The notes under the pieces are model-generated. The model was not told the DNA's origin and did no database searches. It saw only the letters and a list, made by a program, of their open reading frames with translations. 64,000 nucleotides of DNA from Halobaculum saliterrae. GTDB taxonomy: Archaea > Halobacteriota > Halobacteria > Halobacteriales > Haloferacaceae. The stretch covers positions 62,001 to 126,000 of the forward strand of contig NZ_WUUS01000011.1 of assembly GCF_009831625.1 (NCBI RefSeq). The letters run 5' to 3'. Position numbers and translations under genes: made by a program. Below are positions 27,452 to 57,290 of this stretch, one piece after another (within the stretch, counting starts at the first letter, position 1; each line of letters starts with the position of its first letter).

Positions 27452-29119
27452 TCAGGTCGTGCGGTGCATGTCGAAGGGAAGCCCGTCGACGCCGTCGCGC
27501 TGGAAGGAGGTGATCGCCTCGTTCACCTCGTGGTAGCCGAGGATGCCCTCCTGGATCATCCGCTCGATGAGCTCCGCACGGAAGCTCAGGTCGTCGTAGA
27601 TGTCGCGGGTGTCGGCGTACCCCAGCAGCGTCGCGATCTGCTCTTCGAGCACGTAGGAGTTGTTTCGCCCGCGGAAGACGATCTCGTCCTCCACGGGGTC
27701 CCAGTCGAACACCTGCCGGGTGACGACGCCGTCCATCTCCTTGGAGTACCCCTCGATCTCCTGTACCGAGGTGACCCGGCGGAGCACGTCGTCGCCCTGC
27801 TTGACGCGGTTCTGGAACAGCGCCACGTCCGCCACGTCCATGAACGTCTCCGGGACGTTGATCGGCTCGGAGGTGAACCGCTGGATCATCGAGACGATGT
27901 CGGAGGCGTGGAACGTCAGCATCACCGGGTGGCCCGTCTGGGCCGCCTGGAACGCCATGCGACCCTCCGCACCACGGACCTCCCCCACGATGATGTAGTC
28001 GGGACGCGAGCGAAGCGCCGCGGCGACGAGGTCGAACATGTCGACGTCGTTGGAGTCGCCGCCGTCGCCCTCGCGGGTGAGCAGTTGCTGCCAGGTGCTG
28101 TGCGGCGGCACGACCTCGGCGGTGTCCTCCGCGGTATAGATCTTCGAGTCGCGGGGGATGTAGCTGAGGATGGCGTTGAGCGTCGTCGTCTTCCCCGACG
28201 CCGTCTCCCCGACGACGAAGACGGTCTGCTCGTTCTCCAGGCACAGCCAGAGGTACGCCGCGAGTTCGGGACTGAGCGTTCCCCACTTCGTGATCTGGTT
28301 GATCGAGAGGGGCGTCTCCTCGCCCTGGCGGATAGTGAGCGAGGACCCCTTGATCGACACGTCGTCGGAGTAGATGATGTTGATACGCGACCCGTCCGGC
28401 AGCGTCGAGTCGATGATGGGGTTGGAGTCGGAGACGGGGTCACCCATCCGCTCGCCCATGTTGCGCAGCCAGTTGTCGAACTCCGTCGGCGTCCCGAAGT
28501 CGACGGTCGTCTCCATCATGCCGAAGACCCCGTGATCGACGTGACACTCCTTGGGGCCGATGACGTGGATGTCCTCGTTCTCCGGGTCGCGCATGACCGG
28601 CTCCAGCGGCCCGAAGCCGACGATGTCCCGGTTGAGCCGGTAGCGGATGTTGTCGTAGGTCTGCTTGGACACCTCGACGCGGCCGAAGTTCTTGATCGAC
28701 GAGAGGACGTTGCGCCGACCCTGCTCCTCGGTGACGGCGGTGACGTCCTCCAGCAGTTCCTCGATCAGGTCGTCGTATCCCGACTCGCCCTCCGGCGCGG
28801 GCTTGTGGCCGCTCTGGCGTAGCAGCTTCGACTTGACGGTGTCCAGCACTTCCTCCTCGGCGCCCGACAGCGTCGGCTCGACGGTGTAGTACTTCGTGTC
28901 CTGCCCGAAGTCGCCGTACACGTGACAGAAGATGGGACCGCCGACCGGGTACAGCACGTTCGGGCGACGGGCCTCGTGCTCCCCCTCGATCTCGTCGACG
29001 AACATCGGGAACTCGCCGGTGATCTGCTTGAACTTCTGCAGGTGCTCCCGCAGGTGCGGCCGCTTCATCGCCAGCTGTTTCAGTTCGCTCGAGGGGTTCG
29101 CCTGTCCTTGGTCTGTCAT
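27452..29119 (-). CDS. arlI: Archaellum motor/assembly ATPase ArlI (FlaI)
   Basis: The 555-residue type II/IV secretion ATPase hexamer powers both export and rotation. The N-terminal domain precedes the catalytic domain with Walker A 'VFVVGETASGKTTTLNAIL', Asp box, Walker B 'DYIIVGEVRGAEGRMAFQAA' and His box 'GHPVMLTFHASD'. The ATG at 29119 follows a Shine-Dalgarno GGAGGTG (29125-29132) and matches the family N-terminus; longer in-frame starts run into promoter sequence. A 30-codon mini-ORF ends in a 4-nt overlap with this ATG. It has its own promoter, apart from arlH. Confidence 0.95.
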   Translation of the reverse strand: MTDQGQANPSSELKQLAMKRPHLREHLQKFKQITGEFPMFVDEIEGEHEARRPNVLYPVGGPIFCHVYGDFGQDTKYYTVEPTLSGAEEEVLDTVKSKLLRQSGHKPAPEGESGYDDLIEELLEDVTAVTEEQGRRNVLSSIKNFGRVEVSKQTYDNIRYRLNRDIVGFGPLEPVMRDPENEDIHVIGPKECHVDHGVFGMMETTVDFGTPTEFDNWLRNMGERMGDPVSDSNPIIDSTLPDGSRINIIYSDDVSIKGSSLTIRQGEETPLSINQITKWGTLSPELAAYLWLCLENEQTVFVVGETASGKTTTLNAILSYIPRDSKIYTAEDTAEVVPPHSTWQQLLTREGDGGDSNDVDMFDLVAAALRSRPDYIIVGEVRGAEGRMAFQAAQTGHPVMLTFHASDIVSMIQRFTSEPINVPETFMDVADVALFQNRVKQGDDVLRRVTSVQEIEGYSKEMDGVVTRQVFDWDPVEDEIVFRGRNNSYVLEEQIATLLGYADTRDIYDDLSFRAELIERMIQEGILGYHEVNEAITSFQRDGVDGLPFDMHRTT

Positions 29120-29234: not shown

Positions 29235-29268
29235 TTAAAGCCTCCCCGCGAGCTATCACCTCCGATAA
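29235..29268 (-). promoter_or_regulatory. arlI-arlJ promoter with archaellum dyad box
   Basis: Read on the minus strand: TTATC, six bases, GATAG, thirteen bases (CTCGCGGGGAGGC, BRE-like), then TTTAA. It has the same spacing as the promoters of arlCDE, cheY and the archaellins. Predicted transcription start is near 29210. Confidence 0.7.
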
Positions 29269-29382: not shown

Positions 29383-30141
29383 TCAGGCGACGCTGCGCGA
29401 CTCGATGACGATCCCGGTCCCCGAGCGGACCGAGAACCCGATCGAGTCGCCGACCTGACTGCCCATCCCGGCGAAGCGCTTCACCGCGATGTTTCGGCGC
29501 ACGTCGGATCCGACCTCGACCATCTGGAGTTCGAGGAACACGTCGGCGATGGACCGGAACGGCCCGATGGCGTCGTCGCCGACCGCCGAGGGGTCGACGG
29601 TGAGGACGATCACCTTGCCCGAGGAGATCATGTCGCGGAAGAAGGAGATGATCTCGAGTGCCGCCTGTCGCTCGTCGTTGTTGCGGACGAGCGCCTCGAA
29701 CGTCGGGTCGTTGCGGAGGATGGAGTCGAACGTGTCGAGGATGATCACGTCGGAGTTCCACATCGTCTCCGCCTCCATCAGGAGCTTGAGCAGTTCCTTC
29801 CGGTCGGCGTCGGTGTCGGAGAAGTTCCCGCCCGAGTCGAAGTCGGCGGCGAGAAACAGCAGCTCCTCGTTCAGCAGCGGTTTCGTCACGTCGTACCGCA
29901 GCGAGTACATCTGGTCGATGAACCCCGAGACGGTCAACTCCGTCGACAACAGCGTCACGGTCGCGCCCTCGTCGACGAGACCGTAGGCGAACCGTTGGGA
30001 CAGCGCGGACTTCCCGGCGCCGTAGTCGCCCTCCATGAGGACGATCGAACCGCGGGGGATCCCCCCGCCGAGTTCCTTGTTCAGTTGGTCGCGCTCCGGC
30101 AGGCCGATCGATAGCAGCGAATTCTGTTGTGCTCGTGACAT
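29383..30141 (-). CDS. arlH: Archaellum regulatory ATPase ArlH (FlaH)
   Basis: The 252-residue KaiC-like ATPase sits at the motor base with ArlI and ArlX/CDE and is thought to switch it by its nucleotide state. Walker A is 'MEGDYGAGKSALSQRFAYG' (about residues 36-54) and Walker B 'VIILDTFDSIL'. Single RecA domain of normal family length. The 25-bp spacing from arlG fits one operon. The 263-bp gap to arlI downstream contains a separate promoter and no other recognisable gene. Confidence 0.95.
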   Translation of the reverse strand: MSRAQQNSLLSIGLPERDQLNKELGGGIPRGSIVLMEGDYGAGKSALSQRFAYGLVDEGATVTLLSTELTVSGFIDQMYSLRYDVTKPLLNEELLFLAADFDSGGNFSDTDADRKELLKLLMEAETMWNSDVIILDTFDSILRNDPTFEALVRNNDERQAALEIISFFRDMISSGKVIVLTVDPSAVGDDAIGPFRSIADVFLELQMVEVGSDVRRNIAVKRFAGMGSQVGDSIGFSVRSGTGIVIESRSVA

Positions 30142-30620: not shown

Positions 30621-31067
30621 TCAGTTCACCTCGACCACGTCGCTCGCGTCGCGGACCCCGTGGTCGACGACGACCTGCGTGCGGTTCGGCGCGCTCGCGA
30701 GGTCGACCTCGAAGCGCGCGGTCTCGCCCGGCAGCCACACGCCGGTGTCGACGTCGCCCTCGACGGCGACGGTGGTGTTCGCGGGCGCCGGGATCTCGTT
30801 GTCGACGAGCAGCGTCGCGTCGCCGACGTCGAGGCTCGTGGTGCCGTCGTTGGTGGCGTTGACGACGAGCGTCTCGGTGGACGTGTTGTACGTCGCGTTC
30901 GTCACGGTGACGTCCGTGTTCGCCTGCGCGAGCGCGCGGTCGGCGGCGTCGTGGCGCGCGTCGCTCACCTGTTCGAAACCGTTGGCCGCGGCGGGGTACA
31001 CGATGCCGGCCGCGAGGAACACGCCGAGGAAGACGACGCCGGCGGAGGCGCTAACGCTGAAGCCCAT
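30621..31067 (-). CDS. arlF: Archaellum stator protein ArlF (FlaF)
   Basis: The 148 residues have an N-terminal membrane anchor ('SASAGVVFLGVFLAAGIVYP') and an extracellular beta-sandwich with many N-glycosylation sequons ('NATY', 'NTST', 'NATN', 'NTTV', 'NRTQ'). ArlF binds the S-layer and ArlG to hold the motor. The gene overlaps the end of arlCDE by 17 bp, implying translational coupling. Confidence 0.93.
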   Translation of the reverse strand: MGFSVSASAGVVFLGVFLAAGIVYPAAANGFEQVSDARHDAADRALAQANTDVTVTNATYNTSTETLVVNATNDGTTSLDVGDATLLVDNEIPAPANTTVAVEGDVDTGVWLPGETARFEVDLASAPNRTQVVVDHGVRDASDVVEVN

Positions 31068-32571
31068 TCATGCCCCCCGAGAGCTGCGGCCACCGGTCGA
31101 TGACGACCGACTCGGCCGTGGCGTCGGTCAGCTGCATGATGTACTTGAGCGAGCGCGTGTGGTGGTCCAGATCGAGGTGGTCGGTCCCGGGGCGGTCCAT
31201 GAGGTTGCGGTCGATGTCGCCGAAGCCCGAGAGGAACCCCTTGAGCTGGTCGGCGACCTCCTCGTCGATCCAGTCGACGCGCTCGTAGTAGTTGACCGCG
31301 CGCACCGCGTCGGTCGTGGACGACTCCTCGACGAGGAACTCCAGCCACTCCATCACCATCAGGTCGCCGACGTAATCGCCCGGCAGACTGGTGAGGTACG
31401 GCTTGTCCGGCTCGTCCGAGAGATCGTCCTCCTCGACGAACTCGAAGCCGCCGTCGTCGTCGACGCCGGCGCCGCGGCGACTCGGATCCGTCGGCCCCGC
31501 CGTCGACTGGGGCGTCGGGTCGGGATCGGGCTCGGGTTCCGGCTCGGCCCCGCCACCCATCCCGAGATCGCCGGCCTCGTCGTGGCCGTTGGACTCCGGC
31601 TCGGCGTCGAGCGCGTCGAGCGGGTCCGCGCCCCCGTCGGCCCCGTCGGGTTCGGCGGCCTCGGCGCCGTCCTCGTCCCAGTCGGCGTCGCCCGACTCGT
31701 ACTCATCTTTCAGTTCGCTGAAACTCTTTCCGCCGCCGTTGTCGGTCGCCATGGTATCTGAATCGGTGTCATCCGCGTTGTCGTCCCCGAAGCCGTCGAG
31801 GTCGTCGTCGAAGCTGTCCCCCTCGTCCATTCCGTCGAGGTCGTCGTCGAACTCGTCGTCCTCCATCTCGTCGAGGCCGTCGTCGAGGTCGTCGCCCTCG
31901 TCCGCCTCGTCGAGGTCGTCCATCCCGTCGTCCGCGAGGTCCTCGTCGAAGAACCCCTCGGCGTCGGCGCTCGCGAGGTCCTCGTCGAGGTCCTCCTCGC
32001 TCTCCTCCTCGCCGTCGGCGTCGTCGAACAGCCCGAAGCCGCCCTCGCCGCCGAAGTCGCCGCCGCCCCCACCCTGCACGTCGTCGACGAAGGGGTTGAT
32101 CCCCCGCGTCACCATCTCGTAGATGTCGAGCAGGCTGCGAACGTCCTCCCCCATGTCCTCGACCTTCCCGGAGATCTCCTCGTTCTCCGAGCGGACCGTG
32201 TTGACGGTCGAGGAGAGGCTCGCGACCTCGTTCTCGAGGTCGTCGACGCGCTTCTCGAGCTCGGCGACGCCGTCGTCGCCGCCGCCGCCCTCTTCCCCGC
32301 CGAAGGGGTCGTCGTCGTCCCAGTCGTCCATGCCGCCGAGGTCGCCGAGGTCGTCGTCGCCGCCGCCGTCGCCGCCTCCGCCGCCGAAGGCGCCGTCGTC
32401 GCCGCCGAGCAGATCGTCGCCGTCGTCGTCGACGTCCCCGGGCCCGTCGTCGCCGTCGCGGAAGCGATCGAGCAGGCTGGCCCCCAGGAGTCCCAACGAG
32501 ACGAGGAGTGTCGCGTCGGCCCCTGGGATCCCGCCGACCCCTGCTCCCGATAGCGCGGTGAGGAGACCCAT
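31051..32571 (-). CDS. arlCDE: Haloarchaeal ArlC/D/E-type motor-switch protein, single fused ORF
   Basis: ArlCDE links CheF/CheY-P signalling to the motor. The 506 residues comprise an N-terminal hydrophobic stretch ('DATLLVSLGLLGASLLDRF'), a Gly/Asp linker, a coiled coil (about 110-160, 'LEKRVDDLENEVASLSSTVN'), an ArlC-like 'LLDIYEMVTRGINPFVDD', a very long Asp/Glu repeat linker (about 190-380), and the conserved FlaD/E domain ('YLTSLPGDYVGDLMVMEWLE' to 'QLKGFLSGFGDIDRNLMD'). I see one FlaD/E domain, not separate arlCE and arlD genes. The ATG at 32571 fits a leaderless start. Confidence 0.85.
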   Translation of the reverse strand: MGLLTALSGAGVGGIPGADATLLVSLGLLGASLLDRFRDGDDGPGDVDDDGDDLLGGDDGAFGGGGGDGGGDDDLGDLGGMDDWDDDDPFGGEEGGGGDDGVAELEKRVDDLENEVASLSSTVNTVRSENEEISGKVEDMGEDVRSLLDIYEMVTRGINPFVDDVQGGGGGDFGGEGGFGLFDDADGEEESEEDLDEDLASADAEGFFDEDLADDGMDDLDEADEGDDLDDGLDEMEDDEFDDDLDGMDEGDSFDDDLDGFGDDNADDTDSDTMATDNGGGKSFSELKDEYESGDADWDEDGAEAAEPDGADGGADPLDALDAEPESNGHDEAGDLGMGGGAEPEPEPDPDPTPQSTAGPTDPSRRGAGVDDDGGFEFVEEDDLSDEPDKPYLTSLPGDYVGDLMVMEWLEFLVEESSTTDAVRAVNYYERVDWIDEEVADQLKGFLSGFGDIDRNLMDRPGTDHLDLDHHTRSLKYIMQLTDATAESVVIDRWPQLSGGMNGLQR

Positions 32572-32597: not shown

Positions 32598-32631
32598 TTA
32601 AACCCATCCCGCGGATTATCGCCCCCGATAA
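32598..32631 (-). promoter_or_regulatory. arlCDE-F-G-H promoter with perfect archaellum dyad box
   Basis: Minus strand: TTATC-GGGGGC-GATAA (perfect dyad, 32616-32631), thirteen bases (TCCGCGGGATGGG), then TTTAA (32598-32602). The TATA is 29 bp before the arlCDE ATG, so the mRNA is leaderless. This is the best-preserved copy of the shared motif. Confidence 0.75.
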
Positions 32632-34493: not shown

Positions 34494-34856
34494 CTACGCG
34501 GGGACGACGTCGTTGATGGCTTCGAGCACGTTCGGCTTCTGGAACGGTTTCGTGATGTACCCCTCGGCGCCCGCCTTGATCGCGGCCTTCATCTTCTCCT
34601 CCTGCCCGACGCTCGTGCACATGATGACGCTCGCGTCGGGGTGTTCCTCGGTGATCTCGGTGGTCGCCTCGATCCCGTTACGGATCGGCATGACGATGTC
34701 CATCATCACGATGTCGGGGGCGTGTTCGCCGTAGAGATCCACCGCCTCCACGCCGTTCTCCGCCTCTCCGACGATCTCGAACTCGCCCTCGAGGATCTCC
34801 CGGAGGAGGTTCCGCATGAATTCCGAGTCGTCCGCGATCAGCACGCTGGTCGGCAT
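34494..34856 (-). CDS. cheY: Chemotaxis response regulator CheY
   Basis: The 120-residue single receiver domain has the acidic pair in 'VLIADDSEFMRNLL', phospho-acceptor Asp in 'DIVMMDIVMPIRNGIEAT', Thr/Ser switch in 'SVIMCTSVGQEE' and Lys in 'GYITKPFQ'. Phosphorylated CheY would act on the motor through CheF and ArlCDE. cheA and cheF are not in this window. It is the first gene of the cheY-cheC-cheD unit. Confidence 0.95.
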   Translation of the reverse strand: MPTSVLIADDSEFMRNLLREILEGEFEIVGEAENGVEAVDLYGEHAPDIVMMDIVMPIRNGIEATTEITEEHPDASVIMCTSVGQEEKMKAAIKAGAEGYITKPFQKPNVLEAINDVVPA

Positions 34857-34883: not shown

Positions 34884-34917
34884 ATAAACGCATCCCCGCG
34901 GATATCAGGTATGAAAA
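34884..34917 (-). promoter_or_regulatory. cheY-C-D promoter with archaellum dyad box
   Basis: Minus strand: TTTTC-ATACCT-GATAT (34902-34917), thirteen bases (CCGCGGGGATGCG), TTTAT (34884-34888). One half-site base differs from the consensus. The TATA is 28-32 bp before the ATG at 34856, a leaderless arrangement. Confidence 0.65.
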
Positions 34918-35955: not shown

Positions 35956-36555
35956 CTACAGTTCGATCCCCTGCTTCTGCCCGAGCGACTCGGGCACCGT
36001 GAAGCGGATCGTCGTCGTCGCGCCGGCCATCGTGTTGATCTTAATGGTTACCTCGTCGCCCTCGGTGAGGAGGTTCGGCTTGTCGCTGTCCCGCGAGAGG
36101 TCGAAGTTGATGGCGAACCGGTCGTCCGGGTCGTTGAGCACGGTCGGCGAACCCTGCGCGTTCTTCACGACCGACGTGGTGAACACGTCGTCGACCGACG
36201 TGCTCGCGTTCTCGTGGTTGAGGATGAACGTGCCGTCCGGACCGACCCAGGTGATCGTCACGTTCTCCAGGTCGATCTCGCCGGCGCCGGGCGCCTGCGT
36301 CACCGTCACGTTCACCGCGGTGACGGTGTTGTTCGTCTGGTCGACCGTTCCGGTGGTGACGACCTCCTGCAGGCGGTCGCTGACCTGTTTACTGCTCTGT
36401 TGTCCGGTCTCCTGTGACTTGCTCTGGAGGAAGCCGGCGGTGTTGATGAGGACGCCGGCGGCGATCGCCGCCACCAGCACCATCGCGATGAACACGATGA
36501 GCGTCCCGATCCCCACCTGCCCGCGCTCTTCATCGTCCGTGATGAACTCGAACAT
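35956..36555 (-). CDS. Archaellin (second copy)
   Basis: The 199-residue filament subunit has a class III signal '[12 protein letters not shown]' cut before '[20 protein letters not shown]' by the prepilin peptidase (encoded at 62.9-64 kb). The N-terminal helix forms the filament core and the beta-rich rest faces outward, with sequons ('NNTV', 'NVTV', 'NVTI', 'NAST') for N-glycosylation. It starts 2 bp after the first archaellin and shares its first 56 or so mature residues and its last 28 almost exactly; only the middle has diverged. Confidence 0.95.
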
Positions 36556-36557
36556 GG

Positions 36558-37154
36558 TTACAGTTCGACGGCCTGCTTGTTCCCGAGCGATTCGGGCACG
36601 GTGAAGCGGATACTGGTGGTCGCGCCGGCCATCGTGTTGATCTTGATGGTGACCTCGTCGCCCTCGTTGAGGTTACTGGCGTACTGGTCGACATCGAACA
36701 CGAGGTTGAGCCGGTCGTCCGCGTCGTTGAGGACGTTGTCGGAGCCGTCGGAGTCCTTCACCGAGAGGTAGGAGAACTGCTCTCCGCTCGGGTTGGTCTG
36801 CGAGTAGTTCTCGGTGGTCGACGTCAGCTGGTAGGTCCCGCTGGGACCGATCCAGGTGACGGTGGCGTTCTGGATGTCGATCTCGCCGGCGCCGGGCGCC
36901 TGCGTCACCGTCACGTTGACGATATCGATCTGGCTGCCGCTGACGTTGCCGACGGTGGCGACCTCCTGCACGCGGTCGCTGACCTGTTTACTGCTCTGTT
37001 GACCCGTTTCCTGTGACTTGCTCTGGAGGAAGCCGGCGGTATTGATGAGGACGCCGGCGGCGATCGCCGCCACCAGCACCATCGCGATGAACACGATGAG
37101 CGTCCCGATCCCCACCTGCCCGCGCTCCTCCTCCTCGGTGATGAATTCGAACAT
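36558..37154 (-). CDS. Archaellin (first copy, promoter-proximal)
   Basis: The 198-residue archaellin has the signal '[12 protein letters not shown]' and the same hydrophobic core helix as its downstream twin. Sequons 'NVSG', 'NVTV', 'NATV' and 'NYSQ' lie in the exposed domain. It is first in the operon, with a strong dyad-box promoter, so it is probably the major filament protein. The two copies resemble the flgA1/flgA2 pairs of other haloarchaea; I do not assign numbers because orthology was not tested. Confidence 0.95.
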
Positions 37155-37222: not shown

Positions 37223-37284
37223 ATAAATCTGCGGCGCTGCATATCAGATTAGATAACCAGATCGTGGGCTATCGGGATCGATAT
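37223..37284 (-). promoter_or_regulatory. Archaellin promoter with two dyad boxes
   Basis: Minus strand: TTATC-TAATCT-GATAT (37241-37256), thirteen bases, TTTATTA (37221-37227). A second dyad with CTATC-GGGATC-GATAT on the plus strand lies at 37269-37284, 12 bp further upstream and towards the divergent regulator gene. Predicted archaellin leader is about 40 nt. Confidence 0.7.
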
Positions 37285-37369
37285 CTCTCGATCGGGGCGG
37301 CCGAATTCGAGGGATCGAGCTCGATTGAAGACGGCACGCTTATCACACTCACAATCAGTACTGAGAGTC

Positions 37370-37711
37370 ATGTCCGCGGACGACGAGGAGATCATCGAGG
37401 TGCTGGGGAACAAATATAACCCCGAGATCCTCGACGCGGCGGGCGAACCGAAGTCGGCACAGGAGCTGTCCGATCAGCTCGGCGTGCCGATCGCCACCTG
37501 TTACCGCCGGATCAACGAACTGGAGGACACCGAGCTGTTGGAGCTACACGACCGCCCGCTCTCCGACGAACACCGTCGAATCAAGGTGTACCGGCGGTGT
37601 GTCGACGGCGTGAACGTGCGGTTCCGCGACGGGCTGACCGTCGAACTCGAGGAGCGCTCGGAGGTGAAGAACAAGCTCGACGACGTGTGGCGGACGATGA
37701 CCGACGGCTGA
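37370..37711 (+). CDS. Winged-helix (ArsR/EarA-like) regulator next to the archaellins
   Basis: The 113 residues form a winged helix: 'NKYNPEILDAAGEPKSAQEL' leading to the recognition helix 'VPIATCYRRINELEDTELLE' and a wing 'HRRIKVYRRCVDGVNVRF', then a basic/acidic C-terminal helix. It resembles the EarA group of archaellum activators of Euryarchaeota, which bind upstream of the BRE of fla promoters. It is divergent from the archaellins by 215 bp. A CTTATC element (37339-37344) is placed for leaderless start at 37370; the longer in-frame start at 37325 precedes that TATA. Confidence 0.8.
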   Translation: MSADDEEIIEVLGNKYNPEILDAAGEPKSAQELSDQLGVPIATCYRRINELEDTELLELHDRPLSDEHRRIKVYRRCVDGVNVRFRDGLTVELEERSEVKNKLDDVWRTMTDG

Positions 37712-37759
37712 TCGGGGGTCGAACGACCGTCGCGTTCGCCGGGCCCGAACGGATCCCGT

Positions 37760-38491
37760 TCAGAACCCGGCGTCGGGACCGTCGCGGCCCATCATCGAGA
37801 AGCCGCCCGCGCGCTCGTACACCTTGATCCCGCCCTCTGCGATCTCCATCGGGAAGATGTCGGTGTCGATGTCCTGCTTACGCATCTTCGCCACCCAGAC
37901 GTAGCGGTTGACGCCGGAGTCGGTCGGCGTCTGGATGAAGTAGATGTTCCCGTCGGTGAGGAAGTTCTCGAGGCCGATCTCCGTCTCCGGGAACACCGCC
38001 CCCTGCTCGTTGATGAGCAACGAGGTGAGTCCGTTCTGCTTCAGGATGTCCGAGAACTTCAGCAGGTACGTGCGTTTCTCCTTCTCGTCCTCGAAGAACA
38101 GCGAGAACATCGTCAGGGAGTCGAGCACCAGCCGGTCGTAGGAGGTGTTCGCGAAGTCCTCCATCAGCGTGTCCAGCGCCGACGAGAAGTCGCCCTCCCG
38201 AAGCATATGCTGTTTGTCGTACACCTTGATCGCTCCCTCGTCGACGAGATCGCCCCAGCGGTCGAAGCCGATCGACTCGGCCGCCTGCCGGATGTCCTCC
38301 TCGTTCTCCTCGAAGGAGATGTAGATGCCGTGCTCGTCGTGCGTCGTGACGCCGTCGTAGAGGTACTGGATCCCGAACAACGACTTCCCGGTCCCGGGGT
38401 TTCCGCTCACGAGCACCGTCGCGTTCTCGACGAGACCGCCATTGAGGATGGAGTCGAGCCCATCGATTCCGGTCGGAACAGTGGCTACCAT
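37760..38491 (-). CDS. KaiC-like single-domain RecA ATPase
   Basis: The 243 residues contain Walker A 'VLVSGNPGTGKSLFGIQYLY' (about residues 24-43), the KaiC-type 'GIYISFEENEEDIRQAAESI' and Walker B 'YDRLVLDSLTMFSLFF'. It is a paralog of ArlH in fold but lacks the ArlH N-terminus. It is convergent with the EarA-like gene. The ATG at 38491 is preferred because KaiC-like proteins start just before 'VPTGIDGLDSILNGG'; an ATG 21 bp upstream is possible. Its role, perhaps in signal or motility control, is inferred from position only. Confidence 0.82.
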   Translation of the reverse strand: MVATVPTGIDGLDSILNGGLVENATVLVSGNPGTGKSLFGIQYLYDGVTTHDEHGIYISFEENEEDIRQAAESIGFDRWGDLVDEGAIKVYDKQHMLREGDFSSALDTLMEDFANTSYDRLVLDSLTMFSLFFEDEKEKRTYLLKFSDILKQNGLTSLLINEQGAVFPETEIGLENFLTDGNIYFIQTPTDSGVNRYVWVAKMRKQDIDTDIFPMEIAEGGIKVYERAGGFSMMGRDGPDAGF

Positions 38492-38636
38492 ATTGGTATC
38501 CGCCGTCCCCACAAATGAAAACGGTTCCGCCGTGTACCGACGGCGCGAACGCGACCGGGCCGAGGGCTGTTCGACATGTCTAATTCCACATACCTCCTCG
38601 GTAATAGCTTTCTACGGCAGGATCTGTGTGCGATAG

Positions 38637-38667: not shown

Positions 38668-38712
38668 ATGATTGACCGTGGGATCGGGCTCGTCGGAGGG
38701 CAGTCACGGTGA
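38668..38712 (+). CDS. Possible 14-aa leader ORF overlapping the HalX regulator
   Basis: The peptide is 'MIDRGIGLVGGQSR'. Its ATG is at the predicted leaderless start. Its stop codon overlaps the GTG start of the regulator (GTGA), and a GGAGG Shine-Dalgarno (38695-38699) lies inside it. The layout is the same as at arlI. It may be a coupling leader peptide; it may also be chance. Confidence 0.3.
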   Translation: MIDRGIGLVGGQSR

Positions 38713-39287
38713 CGCGGCGCGTGCTCATCGTCGAGGACGAACCCGAGGTCGCCGATCTGTACCGCGGATACCTCTCGGGGACCTACGACGTCACGGTCGC
38801 GAACACGGGCGCCGAGGCGCTCGACCTCGTCGACGACACGATCGACGCCGTGCTCCTCGACCGGCGGCTTCCGGACACCTCCGGATCGGAGGTGCTCGCG
38901 GCGATCCGCGATCGGGGCCTCGACTGTCGGGTGGCGATGGTGACCGCCGTCGAACCGGACGTCGACATCGTCGAGATGGGGTTCGACCTGTACCTCGTCA
39001 AGCCCGCGACCCGAGACGACATCCAGTCCGCCGTCGAGCGACTCGGAACGCGCGCGCAGTACGACGACACGCTCCAGCGGACCGCCTCGCTCGTCACGAA
39101 ACGGGCGGTACTCGAGGCCGAGCGAACTCCGGCGGAACTCCGCTCGTCGCCGGAGTACGAGGAGCTGGTCGACACCATCGACTCGCTGCAGTCGGAGATG
39201 GACGACCTCGCGTCGGCGTTCTCGCCGGACGACTACCGGATGCTGTTCCGCGACCTCGGTCCGTCGTCCACGTCCGAGTCGGCCTGA
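38709..39287 (+). CDS. HalX-type response regulator
   Basis: The 192-residue protein joins a receiver domain (residues 1-115: 'VLIVEDEPEVADLY', phospho-acceptor Asp in 'DAVLLDRRLPDTSGSE', Lys in 'DLYLVKPATRDD') to a C-terminal HalX helical domain (about 120-185, 'ASLVTKRAVLEAERTPAEL' and 'EYEELVDTIDSLQSEMDDLA'). HalX regulators act with haloarchaeal histidine kinases; output is unknown. The GTG at 38709 is preceded by GGAGG. No kinase gene is adjacent. Confidence 0.92.
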   Translation: MTRRVLIVEDEPEVADLYRGYLSGTYDVTVANTGAEALDLVDDTIDAVLLDRRLPDTSGSEVLAAIRDRGLDCRVAMVTAVEPDVDIVEMGFDLYLVKPATRDDIQSAVERLGTRAQYDDTLQRTASLVTKRAVLEAERTPAELRSSPEYEELVDTIDSLQSEMDDLASAFSPDDYRMLFRDLGPSSTSESA

Positions 39288-57205: not shown

Positions 57206-57290
57206 ACCGAATCGGGGTGAGACCGCCGCATAACGGTTCGGTCCCGCCTATCACGGGTGAAAAACCGACCCCGATCGATCGCGCCTCCCG

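Follow-up and report, generated by a model that had tools for sequence, protein, structure and literature searches.

Beside the archaellin genes of Halobaculum saliterrae lie a small winged-helix gene and a gene for a KaiC-like ATPase, which a first-pass annotation read as an EarA-like control module of the archaellum. The locus raises the question of what these two proteins are, where the regulator might bind and what the ATPase might do to it. We addressed this question in a 64,000-nt stretch of contig NZ_WUUS01000011.1 (hereafter, the window) and by comparison with 194 genomes of the class.

The gene pair, its counterparts and its distribution

The archaellum and chemotaxis cluster of the window lies on the minus strand (Table 1). 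As the first-pass annotation had described, the archaellins and the winged-helix gene diverge, the KaiC-like gene converges on the latter, with 48 bp between the two stop codons, and a HalX gene comes next. The winged-helix protein matched the Pfam models HTH_20 (36.2 bits; cut-off 27) and HTH_24 (24.8 bits; cut-off 21.9), and the KaiC-like protein matched KaiC (PF06745; 174.9 bits, cut-off 26.6). The latter was also correctly held to be distinct from ArlH, since it scored 37.1 bits with the ArlH model (cut-off 215), on which the ArlH encoded in the window reached 323.4. The KaiC-like gene has an alternative start (GTG at 38512), and its product is 97% identical to the CirA of H. gomorrense.

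Table 1. Genes and CsmR sites of the window, with box matches given out of ten positions
Feature	Position	Strand	Remarks
csmR orthologue	37370..37711	+	113 aa winged-helix regulator; ATG 37370, stop 37711
cirA orthologue	37760..38491	-	243 aa single-domain KaiC-family ATPase, CI-like; ATG 38491, stop 37760
receiver-HalX gene	38709..39287	+	Response_reg and HalX, both above Pfam cut-off; divergent from cirA
first archaellin	36558..37154	-	PF01917; divergent from csmR
second archaellin	35956..36555	-	PF01917
cheY	34494..34856	-	predicted CsmR target
arlCE (FlaC + FlaD/E)	31051..32571	-	predicted CsmR target
ArlH	29383..30141	-	ArlH model 323.4 bits
arlI (T2SSE ATPase)	27452..29119	-	predicted CsmR target; start codon approximate (promoter scan from 29122)
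CsmR box AATCAGTACTGAGA	37353..37366	.	8/10; just before csmR start, downstream of TATA-like element; candidate self-repression site
second palindromic candidate box TATCGGGATCGATA	37270..37283	.	8/10; between csmR and archaellin
archaellin promoter	37224..37255	-	CsmR box 37242-37255 (9/10) + 14 nt + TTTA
cheY promoter composite	34885..34916	-	box TTTCATACCTGATA, 9/10, + TATA; one mismatch to composite
arlCE promoter composite	32599..32630	-	exact match
arlI promoter composite	29236..29267	-	exact match

The two genes correspond to csmR (HVO_1209) and cirA (HVO_1212) of Haloferax volcanii (PMC13286277, June 2026) in protein family, location and binding site, and we regard them as the Halobaculum orthologues. 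In both organisms a small winged-helix gene, for a protein of ~13 kDa, stands beside the archaellins, a single-domain KaiC-like gene lies within the same cluster, and the same DNA motif occurs at arl and che promoters, which for Halobaculum is a likeness of sequence only. The two loci differ in that arlA1 and arlA2 stand between csmR and cirA in H. volcanii, whereas the pair is directly convergent in the window. A Haloferax-like locus (L128, so called by gene order only) has the published order csmR, arlA, arlA, cirA, and the window's CsmR and CirA are 62% and 68% identical, respectively, to its proteins. As reported for H. volcanii, cells deleted for csmR are non-motile and lack archaella, over-expression of csmR increases motility, and deletion of cirA produces hypermotile cells that remain rods; the double mutant resembles the csmR mutant, i.e., hypermotility without cirA requires csmR (PMC13286277). 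With these deletion phenotypes in the counterpart pair, the proposal of an archaellum control module holds. No other paper naming CsmR was seen among the matches listed from the literature since 2024 on haloarchaea and the archaellum; the system is already known, and the present work adds a new genus and comparisons between genomes.

Among the 194 genomes, csmR (E < 1e-20) was found in 167, ArlH in 156 and cirA (E <= 1e-50) in 98, and all but one of the cirA genomes (97/98) also carried csmR. The two genes are, by this comparison, co-inherited. cirA was restricted to families f1, f3, f9 and f10, and the csmR loci examined from f2, f4, f5, f6 and f7 gave no CirA match at E 1e-5. Since 50 genomes had csmR and ArlH but no cirA at the E <= 1e-50 threshold, CsmR can work without CirA. 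Nor is csmR always tied to an archaellum, since 24 csmR genomes, four of them with cirA, had no ArlH match. ArlH without csmR at E < 1e-20 was found in 13 genomes (one of which, G020, reaches 8.8e-19), and cirA was missing from all 13. In one genome (G060), which lacks an ArlH match and a clear csmR, the cirA match at L159:6221-6938 is split into two segments with a single overlap, apparently in different frames, and may be a decaying copy.

Of the 97 genomes with both genes, 77 had them less than 300 bp apart, either convergent (46) or in tandem with cirA first (31), and 94 had them within 5 kb, with gaps of 0.3 to 5 kb between convergent genes in 16 and between tandem genes in one; the remainder were more than 5 kb apart (2) or on different contigs (1). 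csmR and cirA were neighbours in 2 of the 10 families sampled. That the pair is a chance neighbourhood without joint function could be argued from this variation of order and orientation between families and from the several motile families in which no cirA was found, but co-occurrence in 97 of 98 genomes, proximity in 94 of 97 across differing arrangements and the published csmR-cirA epistasis in H. volcanii (PMC13286277) make this reading scarcely credible.

The first-pass annotation had also asked whether the three-gene order is conserved across haloarchaea. Our check showed that the order varies. Among 70 named loci, csmR and cirA were convergent and adjacent in 61, in tandem in 6 and convergent with a gap in one, while two were without csmR in the stretch covered; an archaellin lay within the locus in 55. 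A HalX gene divergent from cirA was found within 1.2 kb in 58 of the 70, was missing from 10, and fell outside the covered stretch in two; it was in none of the five tandem (cirA-csmR) loci in which this stretch was covered. HalX was rejected as a constant third member on these counts, and the three-gene order is a feature of the window's relatives and not of haloarchaea at large. Gene order also bears on the antisense control of cirA (hvo_1211s) reported in H. volcanii (PMC13286277). Over the same 97 genomes, cirA and csmR converge in 62, some as direct neighbours and others across 0.3 to 5 kb, and cirA is co-directional with and upstream of csmR in 33 (32 within 5 kb, one further away). Since the latter arrangement is so frequent, an antisense layout cannot be general, and antisense control of cirA as a general rule was rejected.

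Two placements of the CsmR box

In ChIP-seq of H. volcanii, 50 of 65 CsmR peaks contained TATCA-N4-TGATA, with binding at arl and che promoters (PMC13286277). The window contained 12 sites with at most two mismatches to this motif against 1.61 expected, a number reached in 0 of 100 shuffles. A box at 57249 had no clear motility gene, and three other loci, of which L007 and L156 are apparently one genome region, have sites like TATCGGGATCGATA at position -100 relative to csmR. To count boxes at the relatives' loci, matches of at least 8/10 within 220 nt upstream were scored. Such a box preceded 87% of 77 first archaellins, 93% of 45 cheY-like receivers (cheY mixed with cheB) and 84% of 99 csmR genes; where csmR and its neighbor are divergent, a single intergenic box may count for both genes. 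Inner archaellins were intermediate (23% of 91). Among the comparison genes, values were 0/64 for recJ, 5% of 62 for HalX, 8% of 91 for cirA and 4% of 55 for DUF7500; the box was scarce also at arlF, arlG, arlH, cheC and cheD, the whole low group spanning 0 to 10%, and first-order Markov resamplings gave 1 to 7%. Neither HalX nor cirA was retained as a CsmR target at these frequencies. Arm conservation in the sets of 14-mers is inflated by their selection at 8/10.

The boxes fall into two placements. At archaellins and cheY-like genes, a TATA-like element begins 27-29 nt from the first base of the box at 65/96 and 39/45 sites, respectively, while the same spacing, read in the csmR direction, occurs at 1/146 sites at csmR. 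At csmR, 60 of 99 upstream regions carry the box close to the start codon (-17 to -21), as 41 different 14-mers; in the loci inspected it is 3' of a TATA-like stretch. Judged by position, the former would be an activator-like place and the latter, between TATA and start codon, a repressor-like one. Because of this location of the box, csmR is likely to repress itself in many relatives. The -17 to -21 box was missing from the other 39 of the 99 regions, including L136-L138 of f2 and the Haloferax-like loci L128 and L131; in the latter two no self-repression box was seen just upstream of csmR, a difference from the window, and the main text of PMC13286277 makes no mention of CsmR autoregulation. 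In the five loci inspected from f4 and f7, the csmR box was at -32 to -35.

Other loci with archaellum or csmR genes departed from this scheme. Five second-type archaellum clusters (L143, L147, L148, L151 and L153), with ArlH 46 to 50% identical, had no box upstream of the archaellin (best match 5 or 6/10), and a second-type cluster is present also in the csmR-less genomes G022 and G132. At L029:7303-7641 (+) of Halorubrum lipolyticum, a gene for a small membrane protein with a weak, below-cut-off match to DUF7521 is divergent from csmR and has a box and TATA at the usual spacing.

To follow the activator-like placement through whole genomes, we searched for the composite TATC-N6-GATA-N14-TTWA, with the reversed pattern as control. 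The genome of the window had five exact matches, three of them at arlA, arlCE and arlI, and 22 with at most one mismatch against 6 in the control. Eight of the 22 precede arl, cheY, cetZ (PF21011) or type IV pilin genes (PF07790, three genes). No clear motility gene was found at L160, L161 (GAF protein), L170 (CARDB), L171, L173, L174 (TM2), L175, L176, L177 or L178; the inspection covered all matches but L167, L168, L179 and the one on C12. Across 11 Halobaculum genomes, 27 of 30 exact matches were at arlA, arlCE or arlI (reversed control, 2), and the sole genome without a composite (G184, 93% complete) had no ArlH match.

Over all 194 genomes there were 467 composite matches and 22 in the control. 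The 167 csmR genomes held 462 of these (2.77 each; control 0.11), and the 27 csmR-less genomes held 5 (0.19 each; control 0.15), a difference with a Mann-Whitney p of 3e-13 when kinship is ignored. Since the pattern was drawn from promoters of f1, f3, f6 and f7, the counts in those families are not fully independent. The cleanest test is f4, whose target promoters were unread before the pattern was set; here, 44 csmR genomes had 89 matches (control 7) and five others had one. In f2, csmR and ArlH are present and the composite is nearly missing (1 match in 11 csmR genomes), so the site code there has been lost or changed, and the regulator's site may be a different one. Three f2 loci (L136-L138), with csmR ~5 kb from arlH and the CsmR site missing or weak, had 0, 1 and 3 boxes of 8/10, one of which (L138, 4939) has a TATA at the usual distance.

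We also inspected a selection of 14 csmR genomes, comprising 11 from f4, two from f7, and G017 from f1, in which ArlH gave no match. Of their 25 exact matches, 21 precede cheY (12 matches), transducer-like genes (7) or the type IV pilins of G017 (2); these calls were made from the ORF beside the site, and Pfam was applied to both pilins, two transducers (HAMP) and one cheY. In G017, where both csmR and cirA are present, the pilin genes are at L235 and L249 and carry exact composites, and those of the window genome, at L166, L169 and L172, have a CsmR-type box and TATA with one mismatch. The cetZ gene of the latter genome (L165:274-1455 (-), G000 contig C1) has a weak CsmR box and a TATA in the target place. 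Of 30 loci checked, 10 had a box of 8 or 9/10 at -77/-79 from cetZ; these came from Halobaculum, Halorubrum and one other genus. Three f3 loci had an 8/10 site at -74; the remaining loci had no box at those places. cetZ is accordingly put forward as a predicted CsmR target.

CsmR and CirA compared with known regulators

An alignment of 43 CsmR sequences had 19 invariant columns, including S65, R69 and Y74, and the stretches P40-I41-A42-T43 and Y45-R46-R47 were invariant in 43/43. The AF2 model of CsmR (pLDDT 86.0) had as its nearest solved folds, among the matches listed, Phr (2P4W; Foldseek E 9.5e-06) and other ArsR-type proteins, and superposed on 1ULY with Z 12.7 and an rmsd of 1.8 over 78 residues. 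Phr is a repressor. CsmR differs from the Phr/ArsR-type regulators in its low identity to them (~22 to 26%) and in ending in a short helix. Although CsmR is filed under Lrp/AsnC in PMC13286277, no Lrp/AsnC-titled fold was seen among the best 50 matches listed per structure comparison. The AsnC-type model PF13404 gave 18.4 bits (cut-off 27), with HTH_24 over its cut-off, and reached E 0.01 in 4 of 43 CsmR members.

The first-pass annotation likened the winged-helix protein to EarA, an activator of archaellum genes in Methanococcus and Pyrococcus. Indeed, the two share a winged helix, the archaellum genes as targets and a site just upstream of the BRE. The BRE spans 6 nt; the CsmR box, which ends 14 nt before the TATA, ends ~8 nt before the BRE, and the EarA motif of Thermococcales is reported to lie 9 nt upstream of it. 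However, the site itself is a different one. The Thermococcales motif A(C/G)(C/G)TACA(T/C) occurred in 0/77 archaellin upstream regions (and in 1/99 for csmR, 4/64 for recJ and 0/45 for cheY-like genes), and CsmR is stated not to be EarA, with no similarity reported (PMC13286277); the absence of EarA is itself published. On the motif and these published statements, we rejected the EarA label, and consider it very improbable that CsmR is the haloarchaeal EarA. By analogy of site and targets, CsmR would nevertheless work like EarA.

A second parallel is the gas-vesicle pair GvpD/GvpE, in which GvpE elements adjoin the BRE and GvpD lowers GvpE in a manner that needs its Walker motif (PMC4390858). 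This pair resembles CirA/CsmR, as modelled below, in having a BRE-adjacent activator site and a P-loop protein that restrains the activator, and in governing an organelle of movement (PMC4390858). It differs in that GvpE resembles a leucine-zipper protein (PMC4390858) and in that CirA is a plain KaiC domain, on which the GvpD_P-loop model stays below its cut-off (21.5 bits; cut-off 24), with 12 of 27 CirA members at E 0.01.

CirA carries a Walker A motif (GNPGTGKS) and the catalytic Glu pair E61-E62, and G30, G33, G35, K36, E61, E62 and D124 were invariant in the 27 aligned sequences. It is CI-like: it scored 93 to 101 bits against KaiC CI and 31 to 45 against CII (five KaiC sequences shown), and its best solved fold is the KaiC CI domain, with which it shares the fold, the Walker A and the Glu pair. 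The clock kinase KaiC has two domains and CII phosphosites, S431 and T432, while CirA is a single domain. No KaiC CII autophosphorylation residues were found in CirA by alignment; at the S-T position it has E-N-F (E175 in 88/88, N176 in 87/88 and F177 in 79/88), akin to the E-E-F of KaiC CI. Since CirA is CI-like and without the CII phosphosite residues, it is unlikely to be a KaiC-type kinase, and the earlier suggestion that it links phosphorylation to motility is, as far as phosphorylation in the manner of KaiC is concerned, improbable. CirA may still take part in other phosphotransfer, and it may possibly be a nucleotide-state sensor.

The H. volcanii authors proposed that CirA is a kinase, autophosphorylation being known in KaiC relatives (PMC13286277). 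In this reading CirA would phosphorylate CsmR, perhaps at its C-terminal end, where conserved hydroxyls occur at positions 97 (S/T in 92/99) and 111 (S/T in 83/99). However, CirA is closest to KaiC CI and has E-N-F in place of the S-T phosphosites, and the end of CsmR is a predicted helix (98-112, the last residues at low confidence) and not plainly unstructured. We regard phosphorylation of CsmR by CirA as distinctly unlikely, and a nucleotide-gated anti-activator seems the likelier role for CirA than a KaiC-type kinase. A second KaiC-like gene was observed at L155:6505-7200 (-); it encodes 231 aa, ~28% identical to CirA, and lies after cheW and divergent from cheB-cheA, and in the f3 locus L120 cirA itself lies after cheW.

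A model for the CsmR-CirA pair

We propose, with a probability of about two-thirds, that CsmR activates its targets and represses its own gene, and that CirA restrains CsmR by contact. CsmR, a winged-helix protein and a dimer in the published model (PMC13286277), would bind TATCA-N4-TGATA. At the archaellin, arlCE, arlI and cheY promoters, the box is so placed that a TATA-like element begins ~28 nt on, and CsmR bound there would recruit TFB/TBP, by analogy with EarA and GvpE. Bound between the TATA and the csmR start codon, it would block its own transcription and so cap its level. CirA, through its CI-type KaiC domain, would restrain CsmR via a nucleotide-dependent protein contact, as GvpD does GvpE. 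Here, we infer the sign of regulation at each place, the self-repression and the direct contact between the two proteins.

Simple activation is not enough, since arl and che transcripts go up, not down, in the H. volcanii csmR deletion (PMC13286277), and self-repression does not account for the rise of the arl transcripts. CsmR might instead be mainly a repressor everywhere, the loss of motility in the deletion being an indirect result of unbalanced archaellum parts. Consistent with this, transcripts of the bound genes rise most at motif-bearing promoters (PMC13286277), and the nearest folds among the matches listed, Phr and ArsR-type proteins, include many repressors. However, at the targets the box is upstream of BRE/TATA and should leave the path of polymerase free, motility rises on over-expression of csmR, and the hypermotility of the cirA deletion depends on csmR (PMC13286277). 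A general repressor is, in our view, unlikely, though it deserves to be kept in mind beside the model of activation with self-repression and restraint by CirA.

The comparison extends the pair from one described species to a large part of the class. csmR, the CsmR site and its 28-nt spacing are widespread, and cirA, the gene order and HalX are not. Co-inheritance, the two box placements, the composite counts and the CI-like nature of CirA are new here and come from comparison only. They bear on two questions raised in PMC13286277, namely a possible dual action of CsmR and a possible kinase activity of CirA, and the two box placements make the former testable by promoter reporters. It is conceivable, though we hold it only tentatively and at less than even odds, that CsmR is a position-dependent dual regulator and CirA a non-kinase, nucleotide-gated anti-activator that binds it, together forming a second, independent switch of the GvpD/GvpE kind. 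If this were true, the loop would let haloarchaea switch swimming, pili and rod shape on and off in a damped manner (boxes stand also before a cetZ gene and type IV pilin genes), and where a species has lost its archaellum, the pair would govern its pili.
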